A DNA stretch of 64,000 nt from Candidatus Zhuqueibacterota bacterium (lineage in GTDB: Bacteria; Zhuqueibacterota; QNDG01; JABMRT01), in assembly GCA_013202295.1 (NCBI GenBank), contig JABMRT010000038.1:1-64000 (forward strand), in the 5' to 3' direction. The position numbers were made by a program, and so were the translations under genes. Positions 12,569-61,442 of the stretch are shown here, piece by piece (within the stretch, counting starts at the first letter, position 1; every line of letters starts with the position of its first letter). The notes beneath the pieces are model-generated. The model saw nothing but the letters and a program-made list of their open reading frames with translations, had not been told where the DNA came from and did no database searches.

Positions 12569-12582
12569 GTGGGTATATCACT

Positions 12583-14185: not shown

Positions 14186-14209
14186 TCGTTCATGACATAG
14201 AGGGAATGA

Positions 14210-15196: not shown

Positions 15197-15226
15197 TCGC
15201 ATCAGTTTACGAGGAGATTTAATTTC

Positions 15227-33550: not shown

Positions 33551-33556
33551 CCAACG

Positions 33557-34012
33557 CTACGCATAAAAAAGGATCAGGTAGGGAGTTAAAATAGGGGTCA
33601 ACAGCGTTGAAATCGTGGTCATGGCAATGGAAAGCGCGACATTGCCGTGTGACAGGTAAACCATCACATTCGATGCGGTTCCGCCGGGGCAGGCGCCGAC
33701 CAGTACGATCCCCGCAGCAATCTCCGGTGAAAGTTTTAATAAAACTCCCAGAGTATAACCCAGCGCAGGCATTATGAGGAATTGAAGAAGAACTCCAATA
33801 ATAATGGGAACAGGTTTCAGGAAAGCAATCTTGAAATCCTGAGTTTGCAATGTCATGCCCAGGCCGAACATGATGATCCCAAGAAGTATGGCGATATAGG
33901 GCTTGATGGGTAAAAAGATTGTGGGTGCGAAATTGGCTGCGATTGAGATGAGTATGACCCAAACCGCGAACCAGGAGGTGAGGAGTTTGTTGAGCTTTTG
34001 AAGGAAGTACAT
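33557..34012 (-). CDS. BASS-family sodium symporter, N-terminal half (ends at an amber stop)
   Basis: These 151 residues form the first half of a bile acid:sodium symporter-like protein, with about five hydrophobic segments and the family motif VGACPGGTASNVMVYLSHGN. The frame stops at TAG (33557-33559) after LILFYA, and the protein text continues in frame as RWLPIDPAGLF. The whole, about 310 residues, has normal family length. It could be a recent pseudogene, a sequencing error or a read-through site. It is the last gene of the threonine operon, 38 bases after the ABC gene. Confidence 0.8.
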   Translation of the reverse strand: MYFLQKLNKLLTSWFAVWVILISIAANFAPTIFLPIKPYIAILLGIIMFGLGMTLQTQDFKIAFLKPVPIIIGVLLQFLIMPALGYTLGVLLKLSPEIAAGIVLVGACPGGTASNVMVYLSHGNVALSIAMTTISTLLTPILTPYLILFYA

Positions 34013-34050
34013 AAAACGCCAATGATGAAATAAAGAACTAATTAAATTTT

Positions 34051-42518: not shown

Positions 42519-42547
42519 AATATAAGAAAAAACTGGTCACATCACAA
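42519..42547 (-). promoter_or_regulatory. Promoter of the threonine operon
   Basis: On the minus strand TTGTGA (42542-42547) and TATATT (42519-42524) are 17 bases apart. The start of transcription would be near 42512, giving a leader of about 47 bases. I see no leader peptide or attenuator. Confidence 0.75.
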
Positions 42548-43046
42548 TCATTTTTAGTTCATTTGACGCGGATAAACTTTCGAAACTAATTCATAATTCA
42601 GTCGGTTATATTCCATGTAAATGGTATTTGGCCGAAGACGTTCGATAGAATGATCAAAGTAAATAGTTGTTGAGTTTTTTTAAAAAATGCAAAAAAACCT
42701 TGCACTTCATGGATAAGAATATTATTTTATTACACTTGTAACTGTCCTATCAGAATGCAGTATAATATTCTGATATGTTACAAGGCAATATTAATTGAGT
42801 ATAAATTCATGAATGCCAGGGGGAAACTGTCCGCATGAATCTATCCACATTTTCTACATGAGTTAAAATCTGTAAACAGGGTATTATTCGTATCATTTAC
42901 GAAGATATCCCGCAGTCTAAAAAGCACATCCAATTAAGCCTTGGTGTCTTTTATTATTACAATTGTTGCTTGGTTTATTGGTGGCATTTTATTTGCTTGA
43001 TTGATGAAGTATGAGGTTCCAATATTTGCCTTAGGAGGGAAAACCC
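42548..43046 (+). other. Gene-free stretch between the divergent threonine and SGNH genes
   Basis: About 500 bases without a credible gene. It holds the plus-strand promoter and dyad described separately, a stem ATTCATG/CATGAAT at 42805-42840 in what would be the long leader of the SGNH gene, and an AGGAGGG ribosome site just before 43047. I recognise no known riboswitch here. Confidence 0.6.
42736..42775 (+). promoter_or_regulatory. Likely promoter of the giant SGNH gene with operator-like dyad
   Basis: A perfect -10 box TATAAT lies at 42761-42766, with a weaker TTGTAA at 42736-42741. TATCAGAAT (42748-42756) and ATTCTGATA (42767-42775) form a perfect 9-base dyad around the -10 box, which looks like a repressor site. 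The leader would be about 270 bases long. Confidence 0.6.
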
Positions 43047-46000
43047 ATGAAAATCAGGAAGATGCACCGTGCCCGATTTCTTCCGGCACTGATCTGTTTT
43101 TACATTATATTGGCCGGTTTTAAGCCGCTTCTGGCGCAAACGCGTATCATGCCGATAGGTAACTCCATTACCTGGGGCAAGGAAAACGGTGGTCCGCCTA
43201 TCGGTACGAATGAGGGCTATCGGAAGATATTGAATCAATACCTTCAGGCAGAATATGCAGCCACGTTGGATCCCAATTTTAATGCGACTTTTGTCGGGGA
43301 TTATGGCAGCACGGCCCCCGGCTATTTTATGGATGGCGCCAAGGTCAGCTGGTTTGTCGATCCGGATAGTTCAACTACGTATGGCCTGCCGTTAATTTCC
43401 GGAGAGCTCACCCAGCACAATCCGGACATCGTGATCCTGCATATCGGCACCAATGACATTAATGCCAGTGCGCCGTTAGGTGATGCGGGTGCCGATGGCA
43501 CGGTGATTTATTATCTAAACCAGTTGGTGACAGCCATTGTTGATCATCCCGGCGTGGACAAACTGCTCCTCTGTCAAATTATTCCTAAACTAGACACACC
43601 TGCAAATCAAAACGGGAGTCTCGTATATAACAATGCAATTAAGGCATTGGTTGAAGATATGCCCACGGCAGATCAGGAAAAAATCGAACTGGTAAATTTA
43701 TATCCCGCTTTTCTGGCAAATCAAAGTACCTATTTTAATTTATCGATCGATCCCGTTCATCCAAATATGAACGGTTATACGACTATGGCCGATTTTTTCT
43801 ATACCTATATTAAATTGCATTTTATTGAAGAAATTACGGACGAATTTAATCGGGCTGCGGGTCCCACAGTCGGCAATAACTGGACCAGTGACGTGGGCAT
43901 GCAAATTAATGATGTGGGTGAGACTGGCGGTGGCGCACTCACATTTAGAACTGCTGGGGATCTTAACTGGGATAACCTGGCTGTGTGGGAGACTTCACGC
44001 AATTTAACCACAGTTCTGGCCAAGTTTCATGTCAATTCCACAGCGGGCGGAATAGAGAATGTCGGTTTGGCCGTTGGATTAAACAGTACGAATATCACAC
44101 AGGCTGATGGGTATCTGGTTGTCGCACGTGGCGGTACGGTGAATGTGAAAGAAATTATAAATGGGAATGCCAATGCCGGCGCTGATATCTCATGGGGGCA
44201 AATCGGATTTACCGCACCCCAGCCGGGCGATATATTACAAGTGGGATACCAGGATGGTACAACCCAGAATACATTCAGTATTACACTTCTGCGTAATGGC
44301 GCAGAAATTGATCAGGTAAACATTTCAGACAACTCACAGTATCAGGGCAATGCGGATACACTTTACTCTGGTTTATTGTTCCACGGATATCAAACAACAC
44401 CTTGGGAATATTATATTGATTCATACACTGTTCAGGTGCAAAAGGACGATGCCACACCTCCTGATCCGGTTGTGATCTCATCCGGATTGGTGAGTAAAAC
44501 CTCAGTTCAAATCAATTGGATCGCCTCTGGAGATGATGGCAATGTCGGAACCGCGTCACAGTATGATCTACGGTATTCCACCTCACATATAACTACTGAA
44601 GCACAATTTGCGGGCGCGATTGTTGTGCCGGGTCTGCCCAGACCAAAGGCATATGGTTCCGCTGAAAGCCATTCTGTGACGGGCCTCTTTCCGGGAACCA
44701 CGTACTTTATGGCAATGAAAGTGATTGATGAGTGGGGCAATGTAAGCATACTCTCCAATGAGGTTGGTGTGACAACCAATGCGGCCGGATTCGTTCATGA
44801 TAAATTTGATCGCGATCCTGAACCCAGTGGATCAATCGGACCGAACTGGAACATTGATGTAAATGAATACAGTATTGATTATAACGCAGGTCCGCTTGAC
44901 GGTGAGTTCTACAATACGCAGGGCAGCTTTGCATGGGGCCGCGTTTCCGTGTACACCGGGCTGCGCAATCCCTCAGTTGTTCGATTTGTTTATGGTGAGA
45001 ATACCACAGAGGCAGGTGTGGGCGGCACAGCCATGGCAGTCATGCTGAAGGGTGATGATATCAACACAACCGACGGATACATGATGTTCATTCAGAATAC
45101 TACATGGGCAGGTCCGTTGCTCAGTCTGTATGAGGTTCGAAATGGTATGGTTGTTGGACCGCCGGACGGCCGTATCGCGGAGGTTCCCTATACTTATAGT
45201 GTGGGCAGTAATATTCATTTCCCGCAGGACGGAGACACATTAACGGTGTTTATGGATTGGTATGATGCAAATGGCGTCAAATTTAACATACAGATTAACG
45301 GCCATCCCTGTACGGATGGGCCGATTTATGATGACAATCGACTCTCATTTGGTATCAATGAAACCACATATGCCGGATTGATGCTCAAGCGTCTGTTCGG
45401 GACGGGTAATGAAAATGCGGTGGATGATTTTTACGCGGCTGCTGAGTTGAGCGGTGTAGGAGGTATTGAGATTGTTGAGGGGGATGGAGAATCCGCTACT
45501 GTGAGTACGGATATGGGTGCGTCCGGTGATTCGCTTCGTATCCTTGTTCGCGATGTCAATGGTGCACCTTTACCGGATTGGCCGGTTTGGTTCTGGGTTG
45601 ATTCCCCGGCAGACGCGACGATTGATGCGCCGGATCCGATGTTCGATCCAATTCAAATTGAAGCAGAGTGGGATCCCGAACCCGAAGGCAGTTATTATAC
45701 GGTAGATAATGTGCCAAGCGCTTCGGGCAGTGCCTATATGGTGACAAATACAGGAAGCTCGGGCCTAGACGGCAGCACATTGGATTATGATTTTTATGTC
45801 CAAACTGCGGGCAGTTATTGGTTCTGGGGGCGTGTGATTACAAAATCAAATGCATATGCATTATATATCACTGTGGATGAAGGCACAGCCAACGAGAAGG
45901 TTTTTCAATGGAATACAACCTATTACAGTGGATCATTCTCCAGTCCATTATTTACATGGAGTCCGGTGAAACATTTGGGCAGTCAATTCCAGCCAATTAC

Positions 46001-49000
46001 ATTCAGCAAGGGATTGCATTCCATTAAAGTGCAAAAAGCCCATGATGGTTTGCCGATCGATAAATTTTATCTCACCACCTCAAGCAGTACGCCAAGTGAT
46101 ATCATGCCTTATGATGTATTGATGACTTTTGGCGAAGAAAAGGGTGAAAATGCCGGTACGCGCGCGACAGCTTTAACTCTGGGCGAACTGGCCGGACCCA
46201 ATGTGGTGAAGGCACGCCCGTTTGGTATGGCCGAAACAGCGACTATCACTGTGACAGGCCTGGCGGATGAACCTGTTACCGTAGAAGTGGAGAATCAAGT
46301 TCAGTCAGGTCCTGCGAGAACCATTCTCTCAAATCCGTTTAAGCTGACACTGAGTGATCAATTTGACAATCTGTCTCCCGGCTGGATTGTAAACTTTAAC
46401 ATTATTAGCGGTCCAGGATCTTTGACCGCGGACAGCGATACCACAGATATCAATGGTGTGGCTCTTACTTATCTCACATTGGGATATGGTGATACCACAC
46501 AAGTTCAGGCTACCGTGTCAGGCACAAGTCTTGATCCGATCATTTTTACCGGTATTCCGACGTCCGGGAATCCCGCACAGATTGTTTCACTCGTAAACAC
46601 AGGTGGTGTGAAACATTATATCAATGATGAATTCCCCGATCTGCTTAAGGTGAAAATTCTCGATGATCTTGGTCTGGCTATGGCAGATGTGCCGGTAGAA
46701 TATGTGATAACCACTGGAAACGCGACCGTTGGTACAAAGCAGCCCAATCTTTCTAATGCCCTTGGCATTTTCGCGGACACGCTGAAGCTGGGCAGTCAGG
46801 CGGGTGTTGTTACGGTTGAAGCGTATGCGGGAGGCCTTGAAGAGACCATTCTATTGGATTCGGTTTACAATCATGCAACTACGATTGTACGGGCCGGCCC
46901 GGATACGATTATGGCTGATATTGAAGAAGGTCTTTCACGCACAAAGATCCAGGTTCGCGCCTGGAACACATACCCCGTCACACCGGCAGCTAATTTGGCC
47001 ATCCAGTTTGTAGTGGATGAAACCAAGGGTGAGGGATTTCATTTCCCAAGTGCTGGTGACAGCATCACAATCAATACCAATGCCAACGGTTATGCTGAAA
47101 CTCACATTGTGCCTGGACCGGTTCATGGCAAGTTTACGGATATCGTTCAGGTTAGGGCCTCAGACGGATTTAATTCCATTCAGGGATCCCCCGTCAAATT
47201 TTCGATCACCAGTGAATCTGACGCTTCAGATCTCCTTTATATTAGCGGCAATTATCAGGAAGGTGTGATTGAAGAAGAGTTGCCACTCGGTTTGAAGGTG
47301 CGTATGGTGGATATCAGTCTGTCAGATACGACACCAATTCCCAATCAGCCGGTCATATTCAAGATTGAATCCGGAGATGGTGTTTTCTCTGAAACCGACT
47401 TCCCTGAGGTGCGAATTCTGACGGATGAGCAAGGGTATGCGGAAGTGGATTTCACATTGGGAGCCACCGCAGGCACGCCCGGCAATCCCTATAATAATGT
47501 GATTGCAGCTCGTGCAACAAATGGCTGGGCTTCACTCGGCGGATCTCCAGTCAGATTCTATCTTTCCGCGCGTTCCTCAGATGCGGCATTGATTACTGCG
47601 GTGCCTGTTAATGATACACTCAAGGTTGGTACTGTGGGTAAATTATTATCCCAGAACGTAAAAGTCAAACTTTGGGATTCAGCAGGCAATCCAGCGATTG
47701 ATGAAGAGGTTTTCTTCTCTATCATCGGAGGAAGTGGCACTCTGGGTGGCACGAGTGACACGACGCGTTCTGTAATCGTCGATAATGCGGGAGGCTACGC
47801 TGAAATGGCTTGGACTCTGGGTCCGCATGCGGGTACCAACATAAATATACTTGAAGTTCGCTCCTCGAACGGCACCGCTGAACTGACTGGTTCTCCGCTT
47901 CATTTCTACGCGACCAGTCTGCCGGACTCAGTGAGTCCGATCAAATCCATTGTGGCCGCAGACGGGCCGACACAGGCCGACGGCCTCGATACGTGCTGGA
48001 TTGAAGTGACCTTAAAAGACCGCTGGGAGAATCCTGTTCCGGGGAAGCGCATTCGCCTCAATGTAGTTGGAGGCGATGATAATCACCCGTATAATCCATT
48101 CGATTTGACCGACGCGAACGGAACCGCTATCGGGTATATGGTCTCCTATACTGCAGGCTGGAAGCAAATTTACGCCCGTGTGGACGAAACGGTGGATCCG
48201 GATATTCAGATCTCACAACCTGCCGAGGTGCTCTTTACAGCGACGGACGCTGCTGAAATGAGAAAATATACTCTCGGATCTCTCAGCGGCAATGCGGGTA
48301 CGGTACTGAACGATTCTCTGGCCGTTATCATTACTGACGGTAATGGGAATCCGGTACCCTACGGGCCTGTTCGCTTCAGAGTTGTAAGTGGAGGCGGCCA
48401 GATTATCGGTGACGAGACGGTGCATAGTGACAGTAGCGGTATTGCTGCCACATATGTCATTCTTGGGCCGACACCGGGTGAGAATATCTATGATGCCAGC
48501 GCGAATGCCCAGGATGCAACGGCTTTGTTCGGGAGTCCCGTGACCTTTTCGGTTGTTGGTGAAGAGGGTGTGCCTGTTTCGATGTATGCGGCATCTGCTC
48601 AGGTGTTAAATGGAGTCGCAGGCCAGGTACTCGATATGCCATTTAAAATTGGTGTCATGGATGATGATGGCGATCCGGTGGCCGGTGTCCAAATTCGTTA
48701 TGAAATACAGCAGGGAGGCGGCAGTCTTGAAACGGGCCAACCTGTTCAGACCAATGCCTATGGCGAGGCTGTGACCTATTATCGAGCCGATACTCAGGCT
48801 GGACGTGAAAATCAGATCCTTGCAGAAAATGATGGTTTGGCCGGTGGACCGATCCTTTTCACTGTGACCAGTCAGGCAGGTCTGGCCAGTCAATTGGTCC
48901 TGAATAGCGGAAATGAACAAGCTGCAGGTGTGGGTCACAATGTGTCAAATCCATTAAAAGTCGAAGTCACTGATTGGTATGATAATCCGGTTGGCGGAAT

Positions 49001-50648
49001 CAATATTCAATATTCGGTTGCCTCTGGTGATGCGCACTTTTCCAATGGAGAGACAACGTTCAACGACCTAACAGCCGGTAACGGCCTCGCTGAAGCAAGT
49101 GTACAGTTTGGTGAATCTTCAGGCATTGTCAAAATCCATGCAACACGTAAATTACTGGATGGTTCTCCAGTTATTTTCACACTCTATTCTTTATCTGATG
49201 AACCGGCCACGTTGAAACGGTACCCTGAAAGTACTGACGATATTGTTGCCACCAAAGGATCAATTCTGCCTGAGCCACTTCATGTGCGTGTTGAAGATGG
49301 ATATGGCAATCCTGTACCCGGTCGTGATGTGGTTTGGGCTGTATCAACAGGTGATGCTGTATTTTTAAATTCCGCGCCGACACGCAGTAATGAACATGGA
49401 GTGGCGTCAGCGAACCTTACAGCCGGACAGGGGAACTCATCGACCGTAAAAGCCCTGCTGCTTGACAAGGAAGTACTGTTCACCATTCAGCAGGTGAACA
49501 ATCCAAATTTCCCGCAGCTTGGAACAATTACACCCGATGACACGAGCTGCTTTGAACTTGACGAATTGCGCATCCCCATACATGCATTGCCCGATGGCGA
49601 TGGAGATCTGATCACCTTCGAATTGGGTGATCTGTTTCCGCCTGAGGGTATTGAAGTAAAAAAACACTCTTCAATCACTGCCACAATACAGTGGACACCC
49701 AATCAGAATCAACAGGGCGTCTACATGCTGCATTATCAAGTGATTGACGGTCGTGGAGGATTTGATGCGGACAGTATCCAGGTGACAGTGTTTGACACCA
49801 ATCGGAAACCTGTGATTCAGGAAACCTATCCTGAAAGTGATACGCTGATTGTTTCGGGTCAAATCATGCCTTTCTGGGTGGATGTATATGATGCGGACAA
49901 CGATCCTATCGATTACACATGGCGGGTTGATGGTCAGATTGTGGGCGAGAATAAAAGCCTTTTCCATCTGGATATCGATAAATACTTCACTGGCGATCAG
50001 ATTATCGATGTGGCTGTCAGCGATGGTAAGGAGATTGTGCGTCATCGCTGGAACATGAGTGTTTTCTCTTCTGTCGAACTCACTGAGATGATTGCCCAAT
50101 TCGATCAATGGAACAACGCGGTAACCCTTTTCTGGGCGACCTCACGCGAAACCGATAACCTGGGTTTCGAGGTGTTTCGTGCGACATCCAAGGATGGGTC
50201 GTTCGAGCCAATCACTCAAAAACTTATTCCAAGTGATGCCGGTGGTGAATACAACTTTACGGATGAAAACGTACAGGTTGGAGTTGTTTACTATTATAAA
50301 ATCATTGATGTGGATGTGCGGGAAAATTACAACGAGAACGGTCCGATTGTAATTCAAATTCCCAAACCGGATAAGTTTGTTCTAACCCAGAACTATCCGA
50401 ATCCATTCAATCCAGTCACCAAGATTAGGTATCATGTACCGCGCATGGAACGTGTATCCATTGTGATTTACAATATGCTCGGACAAAAAGTAGCGACGTT
50501 ATTTGATAAAGAACATGAACCAGGTTATTTTGTTCTCGAATGGAACGGACGGAACAGTTGGGGCAATGAAGTCTCCACCGGATTGTACCTGTACCAGCTC
50601 CGAAGTGAGACTAAAACATTAACTAAACGGATGATCAAACTGAAATAA
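43047..50648 (+). CDS. Giant secreted SGNH hydrolase with Ig-like repeats and type IX sorting domain
   Basis: This is a 2533-residue secreted protein. A signal peptide is followed by an SGNH/GDSL hydrolase (about 32-260) with Ser40 in IGNSITWG, the block HIGTNDIN near 132, and Asp235/His238 in DPVHPN. Then come a concanavalin-like region (265-470), an FN3 domain (471-577), a second concanavalin-like region (582-800), a CBM-like domain (868-1020), about ten Big_1-type Ig-like repeats of about 100 residues (1075-2150), a cadherin-like part, an FN3-like part, and the sorting module with NYPNPFNP near 2450. The substrate is unknown; ester groups on polysaccharides are plausible. It has a strong ribosome site. 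Confidence 0.88.
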   Translation: MKIRKMHRARFLPALICFYIILAGFKPLLAQTRIMPIGNSITWGKENGGPPIGTNEGYRKILNQYLQAEYAATLDPNFNATFVGDYGSTAPGYFMDGAKVSWFVDPDSSTTYGLPLISGELTQHNPDIVILHIGTNDINASAPLGDAGADGTVIYYLNQLVTAIVDHPGVDKLLLCQIIPKLDTPANQNGSLVYNNAIKALVEDMPTADQEKIELVNLYPAFLANQSTYFNLSIDPVHPNMNGYTTMADFFYTYIKLHFIEEITDEFNRAAGPTVGNNWTSDVGMQINDVGETGGGALTFRTAGDLNWDNLAVWETSRNLTTVLAKFHVNSTAGGIENVGLAVGLNSTNITQADGYLVVARGGTVNVKEIINGNANAGADISWGQIGFTAPQPGDILQVGYQDGTTQNTFSITLLRNGAEIDQVNISDNSQYQGNADTLYSGLLFHGYQTTPWEYYIDSYTVQVQKDDATPPDPVVISSGLVSKTSVQINWIASGDDGNVGTASQYDLRYSTSHITTEAQFAGAIVVPGLPRPKAYGSAESHSVTGLFPGTTYFMAMKVIDEWGNVSILSNEVGVTTNAAGFVHDKFDRDPEPSGSIGPNWNIDVNEYSIDYNAGPLDGEFYNTQGSFAWGRVSVYTGLRNPSVVRFVYGENTTEAGVGGTAMAVMLKGDDINTTDGYMMFIQNTTWAGPLLSLYEVRNGMVVGPPDGRIAEVPYTYSVGSNIHFPQDGDTLTVFMDWYDANGVKFNIQINGHPCTDGPIYDDNRLSFGINETTYAGLMLKRLFGTGNENAVDDFYAAAELSGVGGIEIVEGDGESATVSTDMGASGDSLRILVRDVNGAPLPDWPVWFWVDSPADATIDAPDPMFDPIQIEAEWDPEPEGSYYTVDNVPSASGSAYMVTNTGSSGLDGSTLDYDFYVQTAGSYWFWGRVITKSNAYALYITVDEGTANEKVFQWNTTYYSGSFSSPLFTWSPVKHLGSQFQPITFSKGLHSIKVQKAHDGLPIDKFYLTTSSSTPSDIMPYDVLMTFGEEKGENAGTRATALTLGELAGPNVVKARPFGMAETATITVTGLADEPVTVEVENQVQSGPARTILSNPFKLTLSDQFDNLSPGWIVNFNIISGPGSLTADSDTTDINGVALTYLTLGYGDTTQVQATVSGTSLDPIIFTGIPTSGNPAQIVSLVNTGGVKHYINDEFPDLLKVKILDDLGLAMADVPVEYVITTGNATVGTKQPNLSNALGIFADTLKLGSQAGVVTVEAYAGGLEETILLDSVYNHATTIVRAGPDTIMADIEEGLSRTKIQVRAWNTYPVTPAANLAIQFVVDETKGEGFHFPSAGDSITINTNANGYAETHIVPGPVHGKFTDIVQVRASDGFNSIQGSPVKFSITSESDASDLLYISGNYQEGVIEEELPLGLKVRMVDISLSDTTPIPNQPVIFKIESGDGVFSETDFPEVRILTDEQGYAEVDFTLGATAGTPGNPYNNVIAARATNGWASLGGSPVRFYLSARSSDAALITAVPVNDTLKVGTVGKLLSQNVKVKLWDSAGNPAIDEEVFFSIIGGSGTLGGTSDTTRSVIVDNAGGYAEMAWTLGPHAGTNINILEVRSSNGTAELTGSPLHFYATSLPDSVSPIKSIVAADGPTQADGLDTCWIEVTLKDRWENPVPGKRIRLNVVGGDDNHPYNPFDLTDANGTAIGYMVSYTAGWKQIYARVDETVDPDIQISQPAEVLFTATDAAEMRKYTLGSLSGNAGTVLNDSLAVIITDGNGNPVPYGPVRFRVVSGGGQIIGDETVHSDSSGIAATYVILGPTPGENIYDASANAQDATALFGSPVTFSVVGEEGVPVSMYAASAQVLNGVAGQVLDMPFKIGVMDDDGDPVAGVQIRYEIQQGGGSLETGQPVQTNAYGEAVTYYRADTQAGRENQILAENDGLAGGPILFTVTSQAGLASQLVLNSGNEQAAGVGHNVSNPLKVEVTDWYDNPVGGINIQYSVASGDAHFSNGETTFNDLTAGNGLAEASVQFGESSGIVKIHATRKLLDGSPVIFTLYSLSDEPATLKRYPESTDDIVATKGSILPEPLHVRVEDGYGNPVPGRDVVWAVSTGDAVFLNSAPTRSNEHGVASANLTAGQGNSSTVKALLLDKEVLFTIQQVNNPNFPQLGTITPDDTSCFELDELRIPIHALPDGDGDLITFELGDLFPPEGIEVKKHSSITATIQWTPNQNQQGVYMLHYQVIDGRGGFDADSIQVTVFDTNRKPVIQETYPESDTLIVSGQIMPFWVDVYDADNDPIDYTWRVDGQIVGENKSLFHLDIDKYFTGDQIIDVAVSDGKEIVRHRWNMSVFSSVELTEMIAQFDQWNNAVTLFWATSRETDNLGFEVFRATSKDGSFEPITQKLIPSDAGGEYNFTDENVQVGVVYYYKIIDVDVRENYNENGPIVIQIPKPDKFVLTQNYPNPFNPVTKIRYHVPRMERVSIVIYNMLGQKVATLFDKEHEPGYFVLEWNGRNSWGNEVSTGLYLYQLRSETKTLTKRMIKLK

Positions 50649-50675
50649 TATCCAAACGCCTTGTGCTGATATTAA

Positions 50676-50715
50676 ACGGCTTCCGCGAATCCGCAACCAG
50701 CGGAAGTCGTTTTTC
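50676..50715 (+). terminator. Terminator after the giant SGNH gene
   Basis: ACGGCTTCCGC (50676-50686) pairs with GCGGAAGTCGT (50700-50710) with one G-T pair, followed by five T. It separates the giant gene from the next one. Confidence 0.85.
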
Positions 50716-50774
50716 ATTCGTTTCAATGTAAATATCACCTGATTTTTAACTCGGAATCTTGTATATTAATTTTC

Positions 50775-52979
50775 ATGAAATATGTACGACTGATCGGACT
50801 TCTTTTGTTAATAACGATGGGCACACTTTTAGCCCAGTCTCGCATTCTTATGCTGGGCAATTCAATCACAGCGGGTGTAGGCAGCACAAGTGGTACCGGA
50901 TTCCGTCAGATGTTATACGATCAGCTAGAAAGTTATAATTATGATTTTGAATTTGTGGGTCCAAGCGGTAGCGAGGATCACCTTAAGGGTTATTTTATCC
51001 CCGGTGTCCAAATTGGCCAATTCTATTATGGGCCCGGCGGGACCGCGCAGTTCAATGTATCGAATGTACTCAATGCGTACCGGCCCAATATCGTGATGAT
51101 TCACTTAGGTACAAATGATCTCTATACCGACGACTCGATTGGTCCCTATTCTGTGGATAGCGGAACTACATTTGAGGACACGACCATTTGCGGCCGCCTC
51201 GCTTATTTGTGCGCAAAAATTCTTGAATGGCACAATGGGATTCAGGATACCTGTGTGCAAATGCTCTTTGTCTCGGCGATTGTACCCCGGCTTGGTGAAG
51301 AGCGCCGCTGTCTGGGCTTTTATAATACGGTTTATTATAATATTGACAGTGACTCCCGGATGGGTCGGATTCCTTCAATTTCCCCCAATACGTTTCGAAC
51401 CATAGACCAATTCAACTCCTTTGATATATCTACAATGATATCACCAGACAGCATTCATCCCAATGATACAGGCTATGAAAACATGGCCAATGTCTATGGA
51501 AATTATTGGCGGAATTTTCCTCTACAATATTTTTCACTCAGCAATCTTGAATATACAGGCAAGAAAACGGGCGATCAGATTCAAATCGGTGTGCGTATAT
51601 TAAAGGGTACAGGCGCGGCTTTCAATGGTATGGAAGTCCGATTCAAGGTTGAAGAGGGGCCAGTCACATTCACAACTCCAAGCCAGTTCGAATACACCAC
51701 TGCGGAAGGAATTGCAGAGAAGACGATACTTGTCACCGGAGAAGGAGTTGCCCGGATCACCGCTACAGTCAAATCCACCATCAATAAATCCATTACTTTT
51801 ACTGTGTGGTCTCAGGATCATGTTTTTGTACAGGGAGAAGTGGCTTATGTGGCCGAGAATCAGGCCGTGCCCAATACGGTGATTGAGTGGGTTGAGGGTG
51901 CCGAATCCGTAGACACAACTGATGCTTCGGGATTGTTCGGCGCTTCACGCATTCCTCTAAATGAGGATTTTACAATTCGCCCCTGGAAAGAGCAGTGGTC
52001 AGACGTCACACCGTCCTCAATCCTCTCTTATGATGCCTCTCTTGTTGCGCGACATTCCGTGGGCCTTGAGATATTGTCCAGCAATGCACAACAGGCCGGA
52101 GATGTAAATACGGACGGTTTTGTGGATATGATGGATGCGCTTTACATCGGCCGGTATGCGGTAGGTATGACTTCTCCCGGATCTGTGCATATCGGTGAGT
52201 GGACTTTTTCACCGGAGACTCAAGCTCATGGGGCAGCCATCGACACGGTTACATTTCCTGTATTTACAGCCATGTTAACCGGTGATGTCAAGGGGGGCTG
52301 GCAGTCTTCGGCTCCCAAAATCAATCCTGGACTTTGGGAAATCACACCTGTCCCGGAACAATATGGGGATACCTTATCCGTGCAATTGCTAATCACGGAA
52401 GCCGATTGGTTGTCTACTGATTTTTCATATCACTATGATCCGACCTCGCTCAAATTTCTATCTATTGATAAGTCGGCCGGTTTGGATGGATTTCAGCTTT
52501 TGCACAAATCTTCCATTTCAGGTGAAGGCCGGGTCGCATTGTTCGGTATCAATCCAGCACGGGGCAATATGGTTGATTTGCGCTTTCTGGTGCTGAATCC
52601 AGATGAGCCTGCTCAGATTCTCTTTGATCCTTTATATATTGAAACGACACGGATGAATCCAACTCAGGTTGTGGTCAATCCGGAATCGTCTGCCCATCCC
52701 GTACAGCTTGTGCTTCATCCTAATTATCCAAATCCATTCAATGCCAGTACTGTTTTGAGTTACTCTCTTGAAAAAAGCGGCAAAGTCCGGCTGGATGTTC
52801 AGAATACATTGGGACAGCAGGTTGCCTGCCTGATTGAGGGCCATCTTGAGGCGGGTTCACATTCGATTCACTGGAATGGCACCGATGATCATGGGCAGGC
52901 TGTGCCCAGCGGTGTTTATATACTTACTCTCCAGACACAAGCTCAACGTCTGGTTCGAAAAATAAATTTAATTCGATAG
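50775..52979 (+). CDS. Secreted SGNH hydrolase with dockerin-like and cohesin-like regions and type IX sorting domain
   Basis: This is a 734-residue secreted protein with a signal peptide and an SGNH hydrolase (about 22-240): Ser30 in MLGNSITAG, HLGTNDLY near 115 and Asp225/His228 in SPDSIHPND. After it come an Ig-like region (255-350), a carboxypeptidase-regulatory-like stretch, a dockerin-like calcium motif AGDVNTDGFVDMMDALYIGR near 441, a cohesin-like beta domain (530-615), and the sorting module with YPNPFNAST near 651. It is a shorter relative of the previous gene's hydrolase. No ribosome site is seen, and a TATATT ends seven bases before the ATG, so a leaderless mRNA is possible. Confidence 0.87.
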   Translation: MKYVRLIGLLLLITMGTLLAQSRILMLGNSITAGVGSTSGTGFRQMLYDQLESYNYDFEFVGPSGSEDHLKGYFIPGVQIGQFYYGPGGTAQFNVSNVLNAYRPNIVMIHLGTNDLYTDDSIGPYSVDSGTTFEDTTICGRLAYLCAKILEWHNGIQDTCVQMLFVSAIVPRLGEERRCLGFYNTVYYNIDSDSRMGRIPSISPNTFRTIDQFNSFDISTMISPDSIHPNDTGYENMANVYGNYWRNFPLQYFSLSNLEYTGKKTGDQIQIGVRILKGTGAAFNGMEVRFKVEEGPVTFTTPSQFEYTTAEGIAEKTILVTGEGVARITATVKSTINKSITFTVWSQDHVFVQGEVAYVAENQAVPNTVIEWVEGAESVDTTDASGLFGASRIPLNEDFTIRPWKEQWSDVTPSSILSYDASLVARHSVGLEILSSNAQQAGDVNTDGFVDMMDALYIGRYAVGMTSPGSVHIGEWTFSPETQAHGAAIDTVTFPVFTAMLTGDVKGGWQSSAPKINPGLWEITPVPEQYGDTLSVQLLITEADWLSTDFSYHYDPTSLKFLSIDKSAGLDGFQLLHKSSISGEGRVALFGINPARGNMVDLRFLVLNPDEPAQILFDPLYIETTRMNPTQVVVNPESSAHPVQLVLHPNYPNPFNASTVLSYSLEKSGKVRLDVQNTLGQQVACLIEGHLEAGSHSIHWNGTDDHGQAVPSGVYILTLQTQAQRLVRKINLIR

Positions 52980-53043
52980 AATGCATTCGGAGAGTTTTTG
53001 TGAACATGAAATATTTTAGCGATTTAAGCAATTGCGAGGCAGT

Positions 53044-55077
53044 ATGAGAGCAGTGAATTCTCACAATATGTGGCACGGTCTATTGATCCTCATGATTTTT
53101 GTCTATCCGATACTCCATGCGAACACGCCCCATATGGCCTATGGCACATTGCAATATCAGGATGGATCCACACCCGCCTCTACGACTTTTCAAGCTTTTA
53201 TCACTGATCGGTCAAGCGAGGTGCTAACTCATACCTCATTCGGTTGCGATTATAGCGGCGGTGTCTGGTCGGTTCAGGTTGGAAATTACCCTTCTCCATG
53301 GTCGGCAGGCGAATTACTTCATGTTAATTTTAATGATGGCGCAGGCAAGACAGGATCCATTGAATTATCCATGACCAATGATCCGGGTGACAATGCCTGG
53401 GTCACCACACTTTCTGTTCAGGACGGAACGGTAAAACTCTTACTGCCGGATACCACGGTGGATCGCGGTGCAACCGTTCAGATTCCTGTTTACCTTGAAG
53501 GATTGGGCGTTTCCGATTCTGTTGTTGCTTATCAGATGACAGTCGGCTTTGATTCGGATGTGCTCATTGCAACAGGTGCATTGAGTGGCGGCACCATGAC
53601 TGAGCCGTGGGGCAATCCATTTGCCGCACCTCAAGAATCTTCCATGACCCTGGCCGGATTCACCACGAATCAGCCCTCCACTCGCCTCGTACCGGATGGT
53701 GGACGATTGGTTTACCTTGAGTTTCTCGTGCACGGAATTCCAGACGATCCCATTTCCAGTAGTACAGAAGTTTACATAGAACAGGCAATACTTTATACCA
53801 TTGAATCCAACACGGCTGAATCCCAGGTTGTCTCTAATACAAAAGTCGGTATCATTACAGTACAGTCCGGCTCGAATCCAGCTACTCGAAATATATCGAT
53901 TTATCCGAACTGGAATTTAATCTCATTCGGTATCGTACCTGATCCTCACACCGTTCCTGAAGTGTTTGGCAGTTTGTCAATTTCCTACGCGTTTGGGTTT
54001 CGCGCGGTTGAAGGACCAATGAGCTGGGATGTCGCTCGTCCCTCCTTCCTGAATGATTTGAAGATTATGGACGGACTTCACGGATACTGGGTGAAATCAA
54101 GTGCGAGCATACAGCAAACCTGGAACGTGTCAGGCGATGAAATCAGTATAAACACACCCATTCCCATGTATGCAGGCTGGAACCTGATTGGATATCTTCC
54201 CACATCTGAGGATCAGATTCTTCATTCGTTCGGAAGTATTGACCCGTTGTTTTCTTACGTGAGTGGATTTGAATCCGGAACTCCGAAGGTCTGGGACCGT
54301 CAAAGACCGGAATTTCTGAACGACTTGCAGACACTGCATCCGCACAGCGGCTATTGGGTTAAGATGGATAGTGCCCGGCAATTGATCTATCCCTCCGGTG
54401 GATATTCCGCGGCCAAACAAACCACAATGCCTTACACTTCAGTTGCTTTTCTGCAAGACAGTATCATTGTCACCCCATTCTGGTGTGACTTCTGGGGAGT
54501 TCAACCGGATCTGATCGCAGAGGGTGATACAATTCAAGTGTTTGATCCAGATAGCGTTTTATGTGGTGAGGGTCATGGTACTATTGAAGGTGGATATCTC
54601 ATCCATGTGTTTGGAGACGATCCGAATACCACGGATCTGGACGAAGGGGCCATTGAAGATGACACCTTGCGGTTTGTGATAAACGGGACTGAAACGAAAG
54701 TGATTGATGGATCTCCTGTCTGGGAATATGGCGGATCAAAACAGGTCAGTTTGGAATTGGTCTCATCCGGGATTGGCCAGCAGAATAACATCCTGCCTGA
54801 ATCCGCAGTTCTTGTTGGGAATTATCCCAATCCTTTTAATCCATCCACAACGGTTCATTATATGCTTGATAAACCGCAATGGGTGCAACTCAGTGTATTC
54901 GATGTGTCAGGAAAAGAAGTTTGTGTATTACTGCAGGATGTTCAGTACGCCGGATCACATTTCATTCAGTGGAATGGCCATGATGATCGTGGTCAACTGT
55001 CGGCGAGCGGTGTATATATCATTCAACTTCAAACATTGAACCTGAATTTGACGCATAAATGTTTGCTGATAAAATAG
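53044..55077 (+). CDS. Secreted modular protein with cohesin-like domain, duplicated WNLISFG repeat and type IX sorting domain
   Basis: This is a 677-residue secreted protein of unknown role. The ATG at 53044 is chosen because a GAGG lies just upstream; the frame is open four codons further to a TTG. After a signal segment (LLILMIFVYPILHA) there is a beta domain, a cohesin-like domain (about 129-240: DTTVDRGATVQIPVYLEG), two repeats that run from WNLISFG or WNLIGYL to GYWVK (about 290-352 and 379-441), a module starting WCDFWG (about 478-570), and the sorting module with YPNPFNPSTT near 594. No enzyme motif is seen, so binding or surface structure is more likely. Confidence 0.85.
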   Translation: MRAVNSHNMWHGLLILMIFVYPILHANTPHMAYGTLQYQDGSTPASTTFQAFITDRSSEVLTHTSFGCDYSGGVWSVQVGNYPSPWSAGELLHVNFNDGAGKTGSIELSMTNDPGDNAWVTTLSVQDGTVKLLLPDTTVDRGATVQIPVYLEGLGVSDSVVAYQMTVGFDSDVLIATGALSGGTMTEPWGNPFAAPQESSMTLAGFTTNQPSTRLVPDGGRLVYLEFLVHGIPDDPISSSTEVYIEQAILYTIESNTAESQVVSNTKVGIITVQSGSNPATRNISIYPNWNLISFGIVPDPHTVPEVFGSLSISYAFGFRAVEGPMSWDVARPSFLNDLKIMDGLHGYWVKSSASIQQTWNVSGDEISINTPIPMYAGWNLIGYLPTSEDQILHSFGSIDPLFSYVSGFESGTPKVWDRQRPEFLNDLQTLHPHSGYWVKMDSARQLIYPSGGYSAAKQTTMPYTSVAFLQDSIIVTPFWCDFWGVQPDLIAEGDTIQVFDPDSVLCGEGHGTIEGGYLIHVFGDDPNTTDLDEGAIEDDTLRFVINGTETKVIDGSPVWEYGGSKQVSLELVSSGIGQQNNILPESAVLVGNYPNPFNPSTTVHYMLDKPQWVQLSVFDVSGKEVCVLLQDVQYAGSHFIQWNGHDDRGQLSASGVYIIQLQTLNLNLTHKCLLIK

Positions 55078-55111
55078 ACTTGGACTTTTTAGCTAAGAAA
55101 CGAGCGGGATT

Positions 55112-58100
55112 ATGATTCAATCACGCATTCAAAATACCATTCGACTGATCGGTATTCCACTATTGTTTTTCCTGATGGTCTCTTCAGCGTGGGCCCAGGC
55201 ACCCCAATGGTGTGATTTCTGGGGACAGGGCGAGTTTGAGGGGACGCCAGTAGGTGCCGGCCATACGATTGGCGCGTATAACAGCTCGGGTCAATTGTGC
55301 GGTGAGGCAACCGGTACTGCTGGATGGTTCAACCTTCGCGTACATGGTGTTTATTCTGGTTCACCCTATTATCCAAACGGCGCATCAGAGGGTGATACTC
55401 TAACGTTCAAGATCAACGGATCGAACGCGAACTGGTCTCCCGGCACTCAGAGTGTACCGAAGAAGGACAATGTCTGGCAAGCCAATGGCAGTTCCAATAT
55501 CGATCTGGATGTACCCGATGAAATCATCGTGGTTGCCAATCCGGGTGGGCCGTATAGCGGGCAGGAGGGGAGCGTCATTCAGTTTAACGGTTCCGGCTCT
55601 CAGGATGCGATCACTTATAGTTGGAATTTTGGGGATGGAAACACAGGCTCCGGCGTCTCTCCCACCCATACCTATCTGGATAACAATACTTATACGGTCA
55701 CATTGACCTGTACCAACGGGGCGTTGAGTGACGATGGAGCAACTACAGCAACAATCAGTAATGTCGCTCCCACAGCCAGTGCGGGCAATGACAAGTCGGG
55801 CAATGAGGGGCAAGTCCTCAGTTTTGCGGGCGGCGCCACGGATCCCGGAACGAATGATGTGTTGACCTACAGCTGGAATTTTGGTGATGGGCAGACTGCC
55901 AGCGGTCAGAACGTGACCCATGCTTACGCGGATAACTTTATATATACGGTCACATTGACCGTCAACGATGATGACGGGGGATCAGATACGGATCAATTGA
56001 CGGCCACGATCGCGAACCTTTCACCTACAGCCGAGGCGGGCGGGCCATACAGCGGCATTTTAAACCAGGCAGTACAACTTTATGGCAGCGCTTCTGATCC
56101 GGGATCTGCCGATGTTTCGTCATTGGCCTATGCATGGGATTTGGATAATGATGGCGTGTACGACGATGCGACGGGTGCCAATCCAGCACCAACGTTTTCA
56201 TCCGAGGGTACATATCCTATTTCGCTCCGAGTTACGGATAAAGATGGTGCTTCAGATACAGACGGTTCATCAATAGCAGTTGCGAATGGTGTGCAGATTG
56301 TAGTAACTACGTCCCCTTCGGGAAGGTTGCTGATCATTGATGGAACGACTCATGCGACACCTGCTTCTTTTTACTGGGTGCCTGGAAGTCATCATACTGT
56401 CGAGGCCATTTCTCCCCAGAGCGCGGGTACTGGTGTCCGCTTTGTGTATAGCACATGGAGTGACGGCGGTCAGCGAGTTCATACCTATATCACTCCTTCA
56501 AGCAATGCCTCAATTACTGCTAATTTTGATTTGCAATATGCCTTAACTGTTGAGTCTGATCATGGAGATTCCTATGGCGGCGGTTGGTTTTTTCAGGGCA
56601 CCACTGCGACATTTGGTGTCACAACCCCGGATGAAGATCCGGGCGGGACTCGTTATACCCTTATTGAGTGGACAGGTTCCGGAACCGGTTCGTATAGCGG
56701 GACCAATCCGGAAAATTCGGTGGCGATGAACAACGCCATTACAGAAACAGCAGATTGGAATGTCGAATATTTTCTCGCCACAGCAGTGGATCCCATAGGC
56801 GCTGGTACAGTCTCTCCAGCTCCGCCAGGAGCCTGGTATGCGGCATCAGCCACAGCAAATGTAAGCGCCGATCCAGTGGGTGATTTTGAATGGATTGGAT
56901 GGGGCGGTGACTTAACTGGCACAACTACGCCGACAACCCTTCTGATGAATGAGCCGAAAAGTGTGGTTGCCAATTTCCAGGGGCAGGTGACCATCACCCT
57001 TTCAACCGATCCTGCCGGATTGTCTTATTTTGTGGATGGTACGGAATATACGGAGACAGAGTCCTTTGTCTGGTTGCAAGGCAGTACCCATACGTTCTCT
57101 ACGACCTCACCTCAACCTGGCGCTGCAGGTGTGCAGTATCTTTACAGTCAGTGGAGTGACGGCGGTGCGCAGGAGCACACATACACTGTGCCTGTGCTTG
57201 ACGAGGAGGTCACAGCCGAATTTACGCTCCAGTACTATCTCACTGTGGATTCGGATCGGGGCAATCCCACAGGAGAAGGATGGTATAACGCGAACAGTAT
57301 GGCCTCGTTTTCTGTGGATTCACTGGATCAGATCAGTGCGGATGAGCGATATCAATTTAATCACTGGGAGGGCGATGGTCCGAACAGCTACAATGGTGAC
57401 GAACTGTCTCCCAGTATTCTAATGGTTGGACCCGTTACTCAGGAGGCGTTCTGGAGCCATCAATACTATGTCTCTCTTGCAGTGGAACCGGATACTGCCG
57501 GGACGATTCAACCCTTGTCAGTTCCCGGTGGTTGGGCCATTGTGAATCAGCAATTGACTCTGACCGCGATTGGCAATATTGATGCAGGATATGGATTTTC
57601 ACATTGGGAAGGGGATGATGCCAGTACAGATAATCCACTTCATATTGTGATAGATAATCCGGTATCTTTAACTGCCCATTTTATAATGGGCGCTGTTCGA
57701 ATCAGCAGTGATCCCCTAGGTCTACTGGTTGTTGTGGATGGGGAGGAAATTACAACTCCGCGTGTCTATAGCTGGCTTCCGGGAGAAATCCATGAACTGG
57801 GTGTGGTCACGCCTCAGGGCGACAGTGCCTCTGCCGTCTATTCTTTTTCAAACTGGAGCGATGAGGGCGCACCAGAACACACGATTACAATTGAAGAAAA
57901 TCTGGAAATATATAAAGCCTTTTATGATGCAGCCTATATGGTTCGTGTAGAGACCGATTACGGTACACCCATTCTGAACGGCGAGATGGTCGATCAGGGA
58001 TTGTTTGATGAAGGAAGCCGGATCACGGTTTCCATAGACAGCTTGGTATCCATCACGGATGAGATTCGCCGTCGGTTTAACAGTTGGACCGGTACGGGAT

Positions 58101-59332
58101 CGGGCTCCGTCTCTTCCAGCAATCGGGAAATTGAGATTGAAGTGAATGCTCCGATCACAGAACGTACCAACTGGATCACGCAGTATAAATTGAAAGCACG
58201 GAAAAATCCTTCTCATGCTCCGGGCTCGAGTATTGTACTCAATCCCACCGGTCCCTGGTTTGACCAGAATCAGGTAGTAACTGCCATTGCTGTGATTATT
58301 GATACCTCCTATACCTTTCTGGGGTGGAGTGGCGCAGTGAGCAGTTCCAATGATACCCTATCATTCACAATGATTGGGCCAATGGAGATCATCGCTTCGT
58401 TTGATACACCGAATCAACCCCCTGCGATTGATGGCGTACCGCTGCTTGATCTTGTAGAGGATGAGACAGGAGTGTTGTCACTTGAATGGTTGATGTCCTT
58501 CATTTCTGATCCAAATGATCCGATTGATTCACTGGATATTGAATTCAAACAGGGTAATCATGTGGTTGTTCAAATTGACACTCCCAATCAGATGATCTAT
58601 CTATTTCCGGAGGCGGAATGGAGCGGTATGGATGGTATAGAGATCACGGCGACCGATCCTTTTGGCGAGTCAGATACAGAAACAGTGATCGTGCGGATCC
58701 TGTCCAGTCCGGATCGGCCACTGCCGTTTGAAGCGCTGTATCCTGCAAATGATACTGTGTTCACCGAGTGGTCGCTCCCCGTCGAATTTCTCTGGCAGTC
58801 TTCCTTAAATGTGGATGAGGGCGACTCAATCCAGTATACCTTTTACATGGGACCGTCTGAAAATTTGATGAGTGCGGGCACATTTCGCATTGTCGGTATT
58901 GAGGACACGACAATCCTTCTTCCGCCTCAGGCATCCAACACGTATTATTGGGGTGTGCGGGCGAATGACACTCAAGAAAATTATACGTGGTGCACGGAAG
59001 TCTTTCAGATTCATGTGATGACCAGTGTAATGCAAACACCATCAGAGAATCCGAAATCGTATCGACTTGCTCAGAATTATCCCAATCCCTTCAATCCGGA
59101 GACGGTCATTCCTTATGATCTGCCGAAGGAATCCAATGTAGCAATCCGAATTTTCGACACGACAGGCCGGTTGGTCCGCACCCTGATGCACAAAACGCAA
59201 GAAGCGGGATATCACCAGATCATTTGGGATGGGATGAACACTCAGGCACAACAAGTCGCCTCAGGTGTGTATGTCATCCATATGCAAGCCGGGGATTTTG
59301 TTCATCAGAGAAAGATTGTTCTGATCCGATAA
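55112..59332 (+). CDS. Secreted 1406-residue protein with PKD and InlB-like repeats and type IX sorting domain
   Basis: A signal peptide (to WAQA) is followed by a WCDFWG module (about 30-133) like that in the preceding protein, three PKD domains (about 143-392; YSWNFGDG appears twice), and three tandem super-repeats of about 235 residues (393-624, 625-859, 860-1100). Each super-repeat is made of InlB-type divergent repeats with W-[TS]-G or W-E-G-D motifs. Then come a cadherin-like and an FN3-like domain, and the sorting module with NYPNPFNPET near 1322. No catalytic motif is seen. It is probably a cell-surface or secreted adhesin or binding protein. Confidence 0.86.
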   Translation: MIQSRIQNTIRLIGIPLLFFLMVSSAWAQAPQWCDFWGQGEFEGTPVGAGHTIGAYNSSGQLCGEATGTAGWFNLRVHGVYSGSPYYPNGASEGDTLTFKINGSNANWSPGTQSVPKKDNVWQANGSSNIDLDVPDEIIVVANPGGPYSGQEGSVIQFNGSGSQDAITYSWNFGDGNTGSGVSPTHTYLDNNTYTVTLTCTNGALSDDGATTATISNVAPTASAGNDKSGNEGQVLSFAGGATDPGTNDVLTYSWNFGDGQTASGQNVTHAYADNFIYTVTLTVNDDDGGSDTDQLTATIANLSPTAEAGGPYSGILNQAVQLYGSASDPGSADVSSLAYAWDLDNDGVYDDATGANPAPTFSSEGTYPISLRVTDKDGASDTDGSSIAVANGVQIVVTTSPSGRLLIIDGTTHATPASFYWVPGSHHTVEAISPQSAGTGVRFVYSTWSDGGQRVHTYITPSSNASITANFDLQYALTVESDHGDSYGGGWFFQGTTATFGVTTPDEDPGGTRYTLIEWTGSGTGSYSGTNPENSVAMNNAITETADWNVEYFLATAVDPIGAGTVSPAPPGAWYAASATANVSADPVGDFEWIGWGGDLTGTTTPTTLLMNEPKSVVANFQGQVTITLSTDPAGLSYFVDGTEYTETESFVWLQGSTHTFSTTSPQPGAAGVQYLYSQWSDGGAQEHTYTVPVLDEEVTAEFTLQYYLTVDSDRGNPTGEGWYNANSMASFSVDSLDQISADERYQFNHWEGDGPNSYNGDELSPSILMVGPVTQEAFWSHQYYVSLAVEPDTAGTIQPLSVPGGWAIVNQQLTLTAIGNIDAGYGFSHWEGDDASTDNPLHIVIDNPVSLTAHFIMGAVRISSDPLGLLVVVDGEEITTPRVYSWLPGEIHELGVVTPQGDSASAVYSFSNWSDEGAPEHTITIEENLEIYKAFYDAAYMVRVETDYGTPILNGEMVDQGLFDEGSRITVSIDSLVSITDEIRRRFNSWTGTGSGSVSSSNREIEIEVNAPITERTNWITQYKLKARKNPSHAPGSSIVLNPTGPWFDQNQVVTAIAVIIDTSYTFLGWSGAVSSSNDTLSFTMIGPMEIIASFDTPNQPPAIDGVPLLDLVEDETGVLSLEWLMSFISDPNDPIDSLDIEFKQGNHVVVQIDTPNQMIYLFPEAEWSGMDGIEITATDPFGESDTETVIVRILSSPDRPLPFEALYPANDTVFTEWSLPVEFLWQSSLNVDEGDSIQYTFYMGPSENLMSAGTFRIVGIEDTTILLPPQASNTYYWGVRANDTQENYTWCTEVFQIHVMTSVMQTPSENPKSYRLAQNYPNPFNPETVIPYDLPKESNVAIRIFDTTGRLVRTLMHKTQEAGYHQIIWDGMNTQAQQVASGVYVIHMQAGDFVHQRKIVLIR

Positions 59333-59759: not shown

Positions 59760-61337
59760 TTAGCGAGTAAAGGTCAAACCAAACGTGATGACATCGGCGC
59801 TCATGCTATAAACACCCGCATAGTTTTCATTCCATGAATCAACGCCGTTTGCTCCCCACTCATAATCTGTCACATCTCGATCAGCCATCATGACTTTTTC
59901 ATACGCAACATTGAGTTGAATCTTACCTAATTCTAATCCCAATCCGGCAGTGATCACGTTGCGGTCATTCGGATCAAGCAGTGTAGGTGTTATGGTCTCA
60001 TCTGGTACCGGAGAGGCAACCATGTAAAAGCCACCACGGAGATCCAATTTAACTTTTTCAGCATCAATGACACGATATTCTGCTCCGACTGCGGTTTCCC
60101 ATGTGTCTTCCCAGCTGAGTGTCATTGCGGTTGAGGTTGTAGTGGATTGAATTTGTAGGTTTACATCAACTTCATTCCAGGATGCCCAGTTGGTAAAGGT
60201 TTCGGAAACCGTTAGGGTTAAACGATCAATTGGTTTAAGGGCCACGCCAAAACTCAAACTGGTTGGCAGAGGCAGATCGGCTTCTGCATAGAGTTTCGTG
60301 CTCTGAGAAACACCGGGGAAAATTTGGTAAAGCATCTGCTTGTAGAGCATTTCGGTGGCAAGGCTGTCAGCTCCCATATTTAGCGTGTCGTAGACCGTTG
60401 CGACATAGGTTTCTATCACTCCCTCGTATCCTGCTCGAGATTCTTCTGTCAGACCGGGCAGATGCACTGTCTGGGTCATGGTACCCTTCAGTTTCAGATC
60501 CTGGTAGATCCGTGCAGACACACCCACACTGAGCCAATCAGTTGCATCCACATGGAGCCCCATGTTGAGGTTCCATGATGAGCCTTTTCCGGTCAGGTTG
60601 GTTTCTACCATCAGTCGCTCGTGGTCAGGGTTCATGACACCATACGCTTCAAAAAGGTTAAACAGCGCTGCAGCTTGGGCAAATTGTGGATCCGCATCCA
60701 CGAGAAGTGGAACGCCCACTTCATTCAGTTCCAGTTTGCCTCTTTGTGTATATCCCACTCCCAAACCAAGAGACACGCCTTCAAATATTTCATAGGCAAC
60801 TGTGGGCTGAAAGAAAACCACTTCATGGTCGCTGCCGGTTTCGTATCCCTCTTCGCCACTTAAATCCCAGTTTGCTCTACCTGTCGGATCGTCTGTACGA
60901 AATCCAGGTGGAACATCATAAAGATCAAACTCGGCACCCAGACCAAAGGGAGCGTACAAGCCGAATCCCAATGTCAGTTTTTCGACTGGCTGAAAAAACA
61001 GACCGATTGCCGGAACATGAAATGTTTGCTCCCTAAGTTCATTCGCACTTGTTGAGAGTCCTGAAAATTGCGGACTTGGATACGCATGCGGTTGATAGGT
61101 TCCTGTGGGGGTAATGAGAGCGTAGGAGATGCCGATGGTTGTGCCTTTCAATTGCGTCAGACCTGCCGGATTAAAAAAGAGCGCGCTCCAATCGTCAGCC
61201 AGTCCTGTAAACGAGCTTCCCATTGCGGTAGAGCGTGCACCCACTGTTCCAATCTGACTTCCATTACTTGCCCAGAGTGAAACACTCCCGAGCATAATTA
61301 AACAACCAAGCAAAATTACCGTTCCTCTTCGAATCAT
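59760..61337 (-). CDS. OmpP1/FadL-family outer-membrane protein
   Basis: This is a 525-residue outer-membrane beta barrel of the FadL/TodX family, which lets hydrophobic compounds such as fatty acids across the outer membrane. The family N-terminus is clear: after the signal peptide comes GARSTAMGSSFTGLADDWSA and LFFNPAGLTQL. The C-terminus ends in an aromatic strand (FGLTF). The frame extends ten codons upstream, but the ATG at 61337 has a GGGAGGAA site and heads the signal peptide. The substrate cannot be told. Confidence 0.9.
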   Translation of the reverse strand: MIRRGTVILLGCLIMLGSVSLWASNGSQIGTVGARSTAMGSSFTGLADDWSALFFNPAGLTQLKGTTIGISYALITPTGTYQPHAYPSPQFSGLSTSANELREQTFHVPAIGLFFQPVEKLTLGFGLYAPFGLGAEFDLYDVPPGFRTDDPTGRANWDLSGEEGYETGSDHEVVFFQPTVAYEIFEGVSLGLGVGYTQRGKLELNEVGVPLLVDADPQFAQAAALFNLFEAYGVMNPDHERLMVETNLTGKGSSWNLNMGLHVDATDWLSVGVSARIYQDLKLKGTMTQTVHLPGLTEESRAGYEGVIETYVATVYDTLNMGADSLATEMLYKQMLYQIFPGVSQSTKLYAEADLPLPTSLSFGVALKPIDRLTLTVSETFTNWASWNEVDVNLQIQSTTTSTAMTLSWEDTWETAVGAEYRVIDAEKVKLDLRGGFYMVASPVPDETITPTLLDPNDRNVITAGLGLELGKIQLNVAYEKVMMADRDVTDYEWGANGVDSWNENYAGVYSMSADVITFGLTFTR

Positions 61338-61442
61338 TGATTCCTCCCCATCTTTATTAAATGTCATGAATGAATTCTAGGACTCGCGATGAAGGAAACT
61401 GCTGTTTTCCTCCAAAGTTAATCAGAATACAACATTTAGATT

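Follow-up and report, generated by a model that had tools for sequence, protein, structure and literature searches.

A conserved gene cluster in Candidatus Zhuqueibacterota that may encode a type IX-exported, cellulosome-like esterase complex

Most of what is known about cellulosome-type assembly comes from Clostridia, and to our knowledge few reports combine it with type IX secretion. One case has been inferred in Ca. Stygibacter (Cloacimonadota), whose cellulosome-like system includes a C-terminal domain of the type IX kind and combines GH18, GH57 and peptidases with a 3,755 aa scaffoldin carrying repeated cohesins and carbohydrate-binding modules (PMC8542988). Other points of comparison are CtCes3 of Clostridium thermocellum, a CE3 acetyl-xylan esterase with tandem esterase domains (2VPT), the glycoside hydrolases of Clostridium perfringens that carry a cohesin on the enzyme rather than on a scaffold (2JH2, 2VO8), and the polysaccharide utilization loci of Bacteroidota. 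Here, we describe four consecutive genes (genes 1 to 4, with products P1 to P4) at positions 43047-59332 of a 64,000-nucleotide stretch of contig JABMRT010000038.1 from a Candidatus Zhuqueibacterota bacterium; the whole of that stretch is referred to as the window. The reading we favour, with a confidence that stops just short of even, is that the four genes form an operon encoding a cellulosome-like complex of esterases that leaves the cell by the type IX system and includes no glycoside hydrolases.

The locus shares something with each of these systems. The SGNH domain of P2 resembles CtCes3 by profile and by fold, and the neighbouring esterase genes recall its tandem esterase domains; unlike CtCes3, P1 and P2 have neither the calcium loop nor the GxSG block II of CE3, and carry type IX sorting ends and long arms of immunoglobulin-like (Ig) domains. 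P2 bears a cohesin-like fold on an enzyme, as in C. perfringens, whose cohesin enzymes differ in being glycoside hydrolases from a Gram-positive organism with no type IX system. As in the loci of Bacteroidota, secreted polymer-active proteins are clustered, but the window yielded neither a SusC/SusD pair nor a glycoside hydrolase. The likeness to Ca. Stygibacter, which belongs to another uncultured phylum, lies in dockerin enzymes accompanied by a cohesin protein that ends in a type IX domain (PMC8542988). In this cluster, by contrast, all the enzymes are esterases, no protein has more than one cohesin, the genes lie in what looks like one operon, and each component carries a sorting end. A type IX-linked kind of cohesin-dockerin system is already reported from Cloacimonadota, and what is new here is the restriction to esterases, the single cohesins and the apparent operon. 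A conserved putative operon that joins both cellulosome-type modules and type IX export, with esterases as the sole enzymes, offers a concrete test of how acylated polymers are handled in an uncultured order.

Gene layout and predicted type IX export

The cluster consists of four intact, co-directional open reading frames (ORFs), bounded as follows.

42541-43046, plus strand: 506-base gap before gene 1, the presumed promoter region, divergent from an aspartokinase/homoserine dehydrogenase gene
43047-50648, plus strand: gene 1, P1, 2533 aa
50775-52979, plus strand: gene 2, P2, 734 aa
53032-55077, plus strand: gene 3, P3, 681 aa from a TTG, with an in-frame ATG at 53044 as the likely start
55112-59332, plus strand: gene 4, P4, 1406 aa
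59448-59480, plus strand: intrinsic-terminator-like hairpin with a 15 bp stem and 3 nt loop, 115 bases past the stop of gene 4

The proteins are modular, and their domains in order are these.

P1: signal peptide; SGNH hydrolase at aa ~34-250 (S40, N136, D235, H238); two jelly-roll-like 'DxFDR' domains (assigned by eye); one FN3; a long series of Big_1/invasin-type Ig domains; type IX sorting domain at aa 2450-2531
P2: CE3-like SGNH hydrolase at aa 22-247 (S30, N114, D225, H228); Big_1 Ig; carboxypeptidase-regulatory-like Ig; dockerin (calcium loop D443-D454); cohesin-like fold at aa ~520-635; type IX sorting domain
P3: N-terminal beta domain; cohesin module at aa ~135-260; WNLIS-type beta repeats; type IX sorting domain
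P4: N-terminal beta domain, resembling the C-terminal one of P3; three PKD domains; InlB-type B repeats; Big_9-like Ig; type IX sorting domain

The genes are separated by only 126, 52 and 34 bp (P1-P2, P2-P3 and P3-P4, respectively), which, together with the 506-base gap in front and the single strong terminator-like hairpin after gene 4, suggests transcription as one operon. The hairpin folds as RNA with -28.9 kcal/mol (z = -6.25) and is the sole one of such strength on the plus strand of the cluster. In the upstream gap, promoter-like matches are just modestly above those in shuffled sequence, with no nameable site. The hairpin is a perfect 15 bp inverted repeat whose arms, AAGTCCCCGGCACTT and AAGTGCCGGGGACTT, recur around a different loop at one further genomic site (C40:45337), and it may be a small repeated palindrome serving as a terminator. 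Tandem DNA repeats were looked for as the origin of the giant gene 1, and none were found.

Export of the four predicted products as type IX cargo is well supported. All four N-termini are hydrophobic and signal-peptide-like when the translations are read by eye, and the C-termini of P1, P2, P3 and P4 score 39.7, 29.8, 33.8 and 35.0 bits, respectively, against the curated NCBI model TIGR04183 for the type A sorting domain (cut-off 23 bits). A first-pass annotation of this DNA had described four consecutive giant secreted proteins with type IX ends; the ORFs and the ends are as it had them, and giant suits P1 and P4, though not P2 and P3. That annotation had also named type IX genes elsewhere in the genome as a check, and they are present: PorU at 915 bits (cut-off 420), SprA at 844 bits including its pieces (cut-off 200), and 23 PorV-family proteins above cut-off, the best at 322 bits. 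The products would leave by the Sec pathway and then cross the outer membrane via the type IX system, where the PorU sortase would leave them on or near the cell surface. Sorting ends by themselves say little, because the genome (5.15 Mb, 303 contigs) holds at least 150 above cut-off and has other runs of neighbouring type IX cargo genes, of 3, 5 and 6 genes. For the same reason, the idea that four sorting ends in a row are in themselves remarkable was dropped.

SGNH esterases of genes 1 and 2

The first-pass annotation had listed two SGNH hydrolases in the cluster, and the SGNH/GDSL domains of P1 and P2 both exceed their Pfam cut-offs. The aligned orthologues of both proteins have kept blocks I (GxSxT), III (GxN) and V (DxxHP) intact, which argues for live enzymes, and the catalytic residues of P1 are invariant among its order-wide orthologues. 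Catalysis by these predicted domains is well supported. An AlphaFold model of P2 (aa 1-639, mean pLDDT 90) has as its top Foldseek match 2VPT (TM of the target 0.76), which is also its best relative in the PDB by profile search (E 8e-18). In the profile search with P1, 2VPT ranks second, behind a designed protein listed as 9HI6; the middle part of P1 (aa 260-1091) has no match in the PDB. 

According to a review, the calcium loop DFVGXnDXD is general among characterised GDSL-2/CE3 enzymes, and block II canonically reads GXSG (PMC9487903). The DXD of this loop, between FVG and block II, is found neither in P1 and P2 nor in 25 of their 26 relatives, a single relative (L153) having DPD there. Likewise, the GxSG of block II is missing from P1, P2 and nearly all relatives, where G-[YHFW]-[FY] stands instead. 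On these two motifs, membership of P1 and P2 in CE3 was dropped, and the two enzymes are probably CE3-like by fold and chemistry, not CE3. Their substrate is most likely acetyl or other small acyl groups on an extracellular polysaccharide or glycan; de-esterification of a polymer is plausible since an acetyl-xylan esterase is the nearest match of known structure.

SGNH/GDSL enzymes also include lipases, and P1 and P2 could instead act on lipids, polyesters or hydrophobic esters, with the products imported by an outer membrane protein encoded next to the cluster.

59760-61367, minus strand: gene for a FadL/TodX-type outer membrane protein (144 bits)

This gene adjoins the cluster here and in three genomes of the same order (G001, G005 and G007), and a secreted esterase resembling polyhydroxybutyrate (PHB) depolymerases is encoded 10 kb upstream. 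However, the FadL-type gene lies on the opposite strand, no FadL turned up next to the clusters of G008 and G002, and in G005 it is accompanied by YebC, so its position may reflect old chromosome order. The nearest solved relatives of the enzymes are, moreover, carbohydrate acetyl-esterases. We regard action on hydrophobic esters as improbable, and as the linkage is not universal, FadL was demoted from a functional partner to an element of this alternative only. The FadL-type protein also matches the PorV/PorQ family model weakly, at 54 bits against a cut-off of 90. As for the upstream esterase gene (31362-33002, plus strand), its product is itself a type IX cargo, a PHB-depolymerase-like/S9-type esterase with a CBM_4_9-like N-terminus and a sorting end.

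Dockerin, cohesin and conservation across the order

A mechanism that goes beyond the joint secretion of esterases is suggested by two modules that the first-pass annotation had missed. It had proposed a secreted or surface system for binding and de-esterifying a polymer, a proposal that remains plausible from the acetyl-xylan esterase likeness, and the finding of a dockerin in P2 and a cohesin in P3 makes a docked complex a likelier mechanism than loose co-secretion. Against Pfam Dockerin_1 (cut-off 22.9), the P2 module scores 26.2 bits in the genome search and 22.0 in the whole-protein scan, and the cut-off is also passed by several P2 orthologues; the Asp residues of its calcium loop are invariant across nine orthologues. 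Against Pfam Cohesin (cut-off 24.1), P3 scores 27.3 bits in the genome search and 23.7 in the whole-protein scan, its orthologues reaching 35.9 bits. The top Foldseek matches of the P3 AlphaFold model are cohesins from cohesin-dockerin complexes (TM of the target up to 0.79), while the cohesin-like domain in the P2 model matches the C. perfringens cohesins 2JH2 and 2VO8. With only about five cohesins and seven dockerins in the whole genome, a dockerin and a cohesin side by side are not background; the remaining cohesins are few and scattered. One other dockerin gene, G000:C1:5632-6210 (743 aa frame), seemingly has a dockerin and a cohesin in one open frame, and another, G000:C26:25504-26559 (862 aa), resembles the C-terminal half of P2.

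The cluster was compared with eleven other genomes of the order (G001-G011), which represent six families. P1 is present in 10 of the 11, mostly with the same neighbours, and its N-terminal third has no match in G004 only, a genome that is 76% complete. Full-length relatives of P2 are found in eight of the 11, many of them adjoined by relatives of P4. The order P1-P2-P3-P4 is seen in G005 and G008. In G001 and G002, P1-P2-P3 runs to the contig end and P4 lies on a separate contig, while G003, G006 and G007 have P1-P2-P4. In G010, P1-P2 is followed by a fused P3/P4; in G009, the order is P1, a beta-helix protein, P3 and P4; and G011 is fragmented, with pieces of P2 and P4 sharing one contig. 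Because the gene group is kept across the order, the cluster is more than a chance arrangement, and the conservation that the first-pass annotation had asked for is borne out; neither of the two results that it had named as refuting it, a genome lacking type IX genes or an unconserved gene group, came about. In addition, every cluster examined holds a cohesin-like module, which is P3 itself, a short extra gene after P4, or a domain fused to P4. The short gene is found in G003, G006, G007 and G011, with cohesin scores of 15 to 39 bits (best 39.1), and the fused domain in G010 is a weak cohesin of 16 bits; the cohesin is weak in the G003, G007 and G010 clusters. In G008, an extra cargo gene of 1278 aa stands between P3 and P4 (L173:1320-5156, G008:C106), with FG-GAP/VCBS-like repeats and dockerin-like EF-hand stretches identified by eye.

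The adjoining dockerin enzyme and cohesin protein, kept over the order, are the best evidence for a docked complex. In such a complex, an extracellular polysaccharide or glycan would most likely lose acetyl or other small acyl groups to the predicted SGNH esterases of genes 1 and 2. The dockerin of P2 would fit into the cohesin of P3, or into that of another cohesin protein, much as in a miniature cellulosome, and P1 and P4 would contribute stalks and binding arms in the form of their Ig, PKD and InlB-type domains. P4 has no enzyme domain by domain scan. 

Several observations weigh against this reading. The dockerin type I definition used here calls for two F-hand repeats with calcium loops; in P2, the second loop is canonical and invariant, and the first repeat is without a calcium loop. 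P2 has its own cohesin-like fold beside its dockerin in the model, and the dockerin could thus be satisfied within the same chain. The C-terminal half of P2 (Ig, dockerin and cohesin) is found in many other secreted proteins of the phylum, and this block may be a general structural module. The G009 cluster has a cohesin but no P2. Neither a carbohydrate-binding module above cut-off nor a glycoside hydrolase was identified, and the missing CE3-specific motifs mean that the substrate cannot be read from the family. A repeated-cohesin scaffoldin, as a cellulosome requires, is likewise lacking, with one cohesin per protein in the cluster.

In an alternative explanation, the four type IX surface proteins act on a polymer as esterases and adhesins with no cohesin-dockerin assembly between proteins, the modules of P2 being fixed within one chain. 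The presence of both partners in P2, the recurrence of the same C-terminal combination in the phylum and the whole-protein scores of the P2 dockerin and cohesin, at the edge of the Pfam cut-offs, are all in its favour; set against these are a separate, better-scoring P3 cohesin next door, which is kept order-wide or replaced by another cohesin gene of the cluster, and the strict conservation of the P2 calcium loop. On balance, assembly-free action is a possibility that we take seriously but consider doubtful. A docked complex is preferred, where the P2 dockerin would bind the P3 cohesin. A further-reaching version of this preferred reading is that the cluster encodes a stand-alone, type IX-built 'esterosome', a cohesin-dockerin surface complex whose only enzymes are ester-removing ones, from an SGNH subfamily that lacks the calcium loop of CE3. 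Such a complex would ready polymers for other cells, or for enzymes with genes elsewhere, and would be a core trait of the order; we consider this version unlikely.

Genes around the cluster

As the first-pass annotation had stated, glycoside hydrolases and SusC/D genes are lacking: no glycoside hydrolase or SusD domain was found among the window ORFs scanned, and two TonB receptors at 17-21 kb, which puts them 22-26 kb upstream of gene 1, are B12/siderophore-like. A usual polysaccharide utilization locus was dropped as an explanation on the absence of SusD and glycoside hydrolases.

The same absence from the cluster is consistent with proteins that serve the cell's own envelope or biofilm matrix, where the SGNH domains would de-acylate a self-made exopolysaccharide and the Ig and PKD arms would hold the matrix. 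The long Ig-repeat architecture fits such a role, as does the retention, in further families of the phylum, of a giant SGNH-Ig gene related to P1 among different neighbours. No genes for exopolysaccharide synthesis were seen nearby in the scans of the window ORFs, however, and the cellulosome-type modules point to an external polymer, which makes a matrix role very improbable.

Two further regions of the window lie apart from the cluster. At 33068-34022 (minus strand), two overlapping ORFs, one with a partial sodium/bile-acid symporter domain, possibly represent a frameshifted or broken transporter. At 1-15715 (plus strand), a dense run of short ORFs that includes SecY (9575-10900) and a methionine-aminopeptidase-type M24 peptidase (11585-12346) resembles a ribosomal protein gene cluster.

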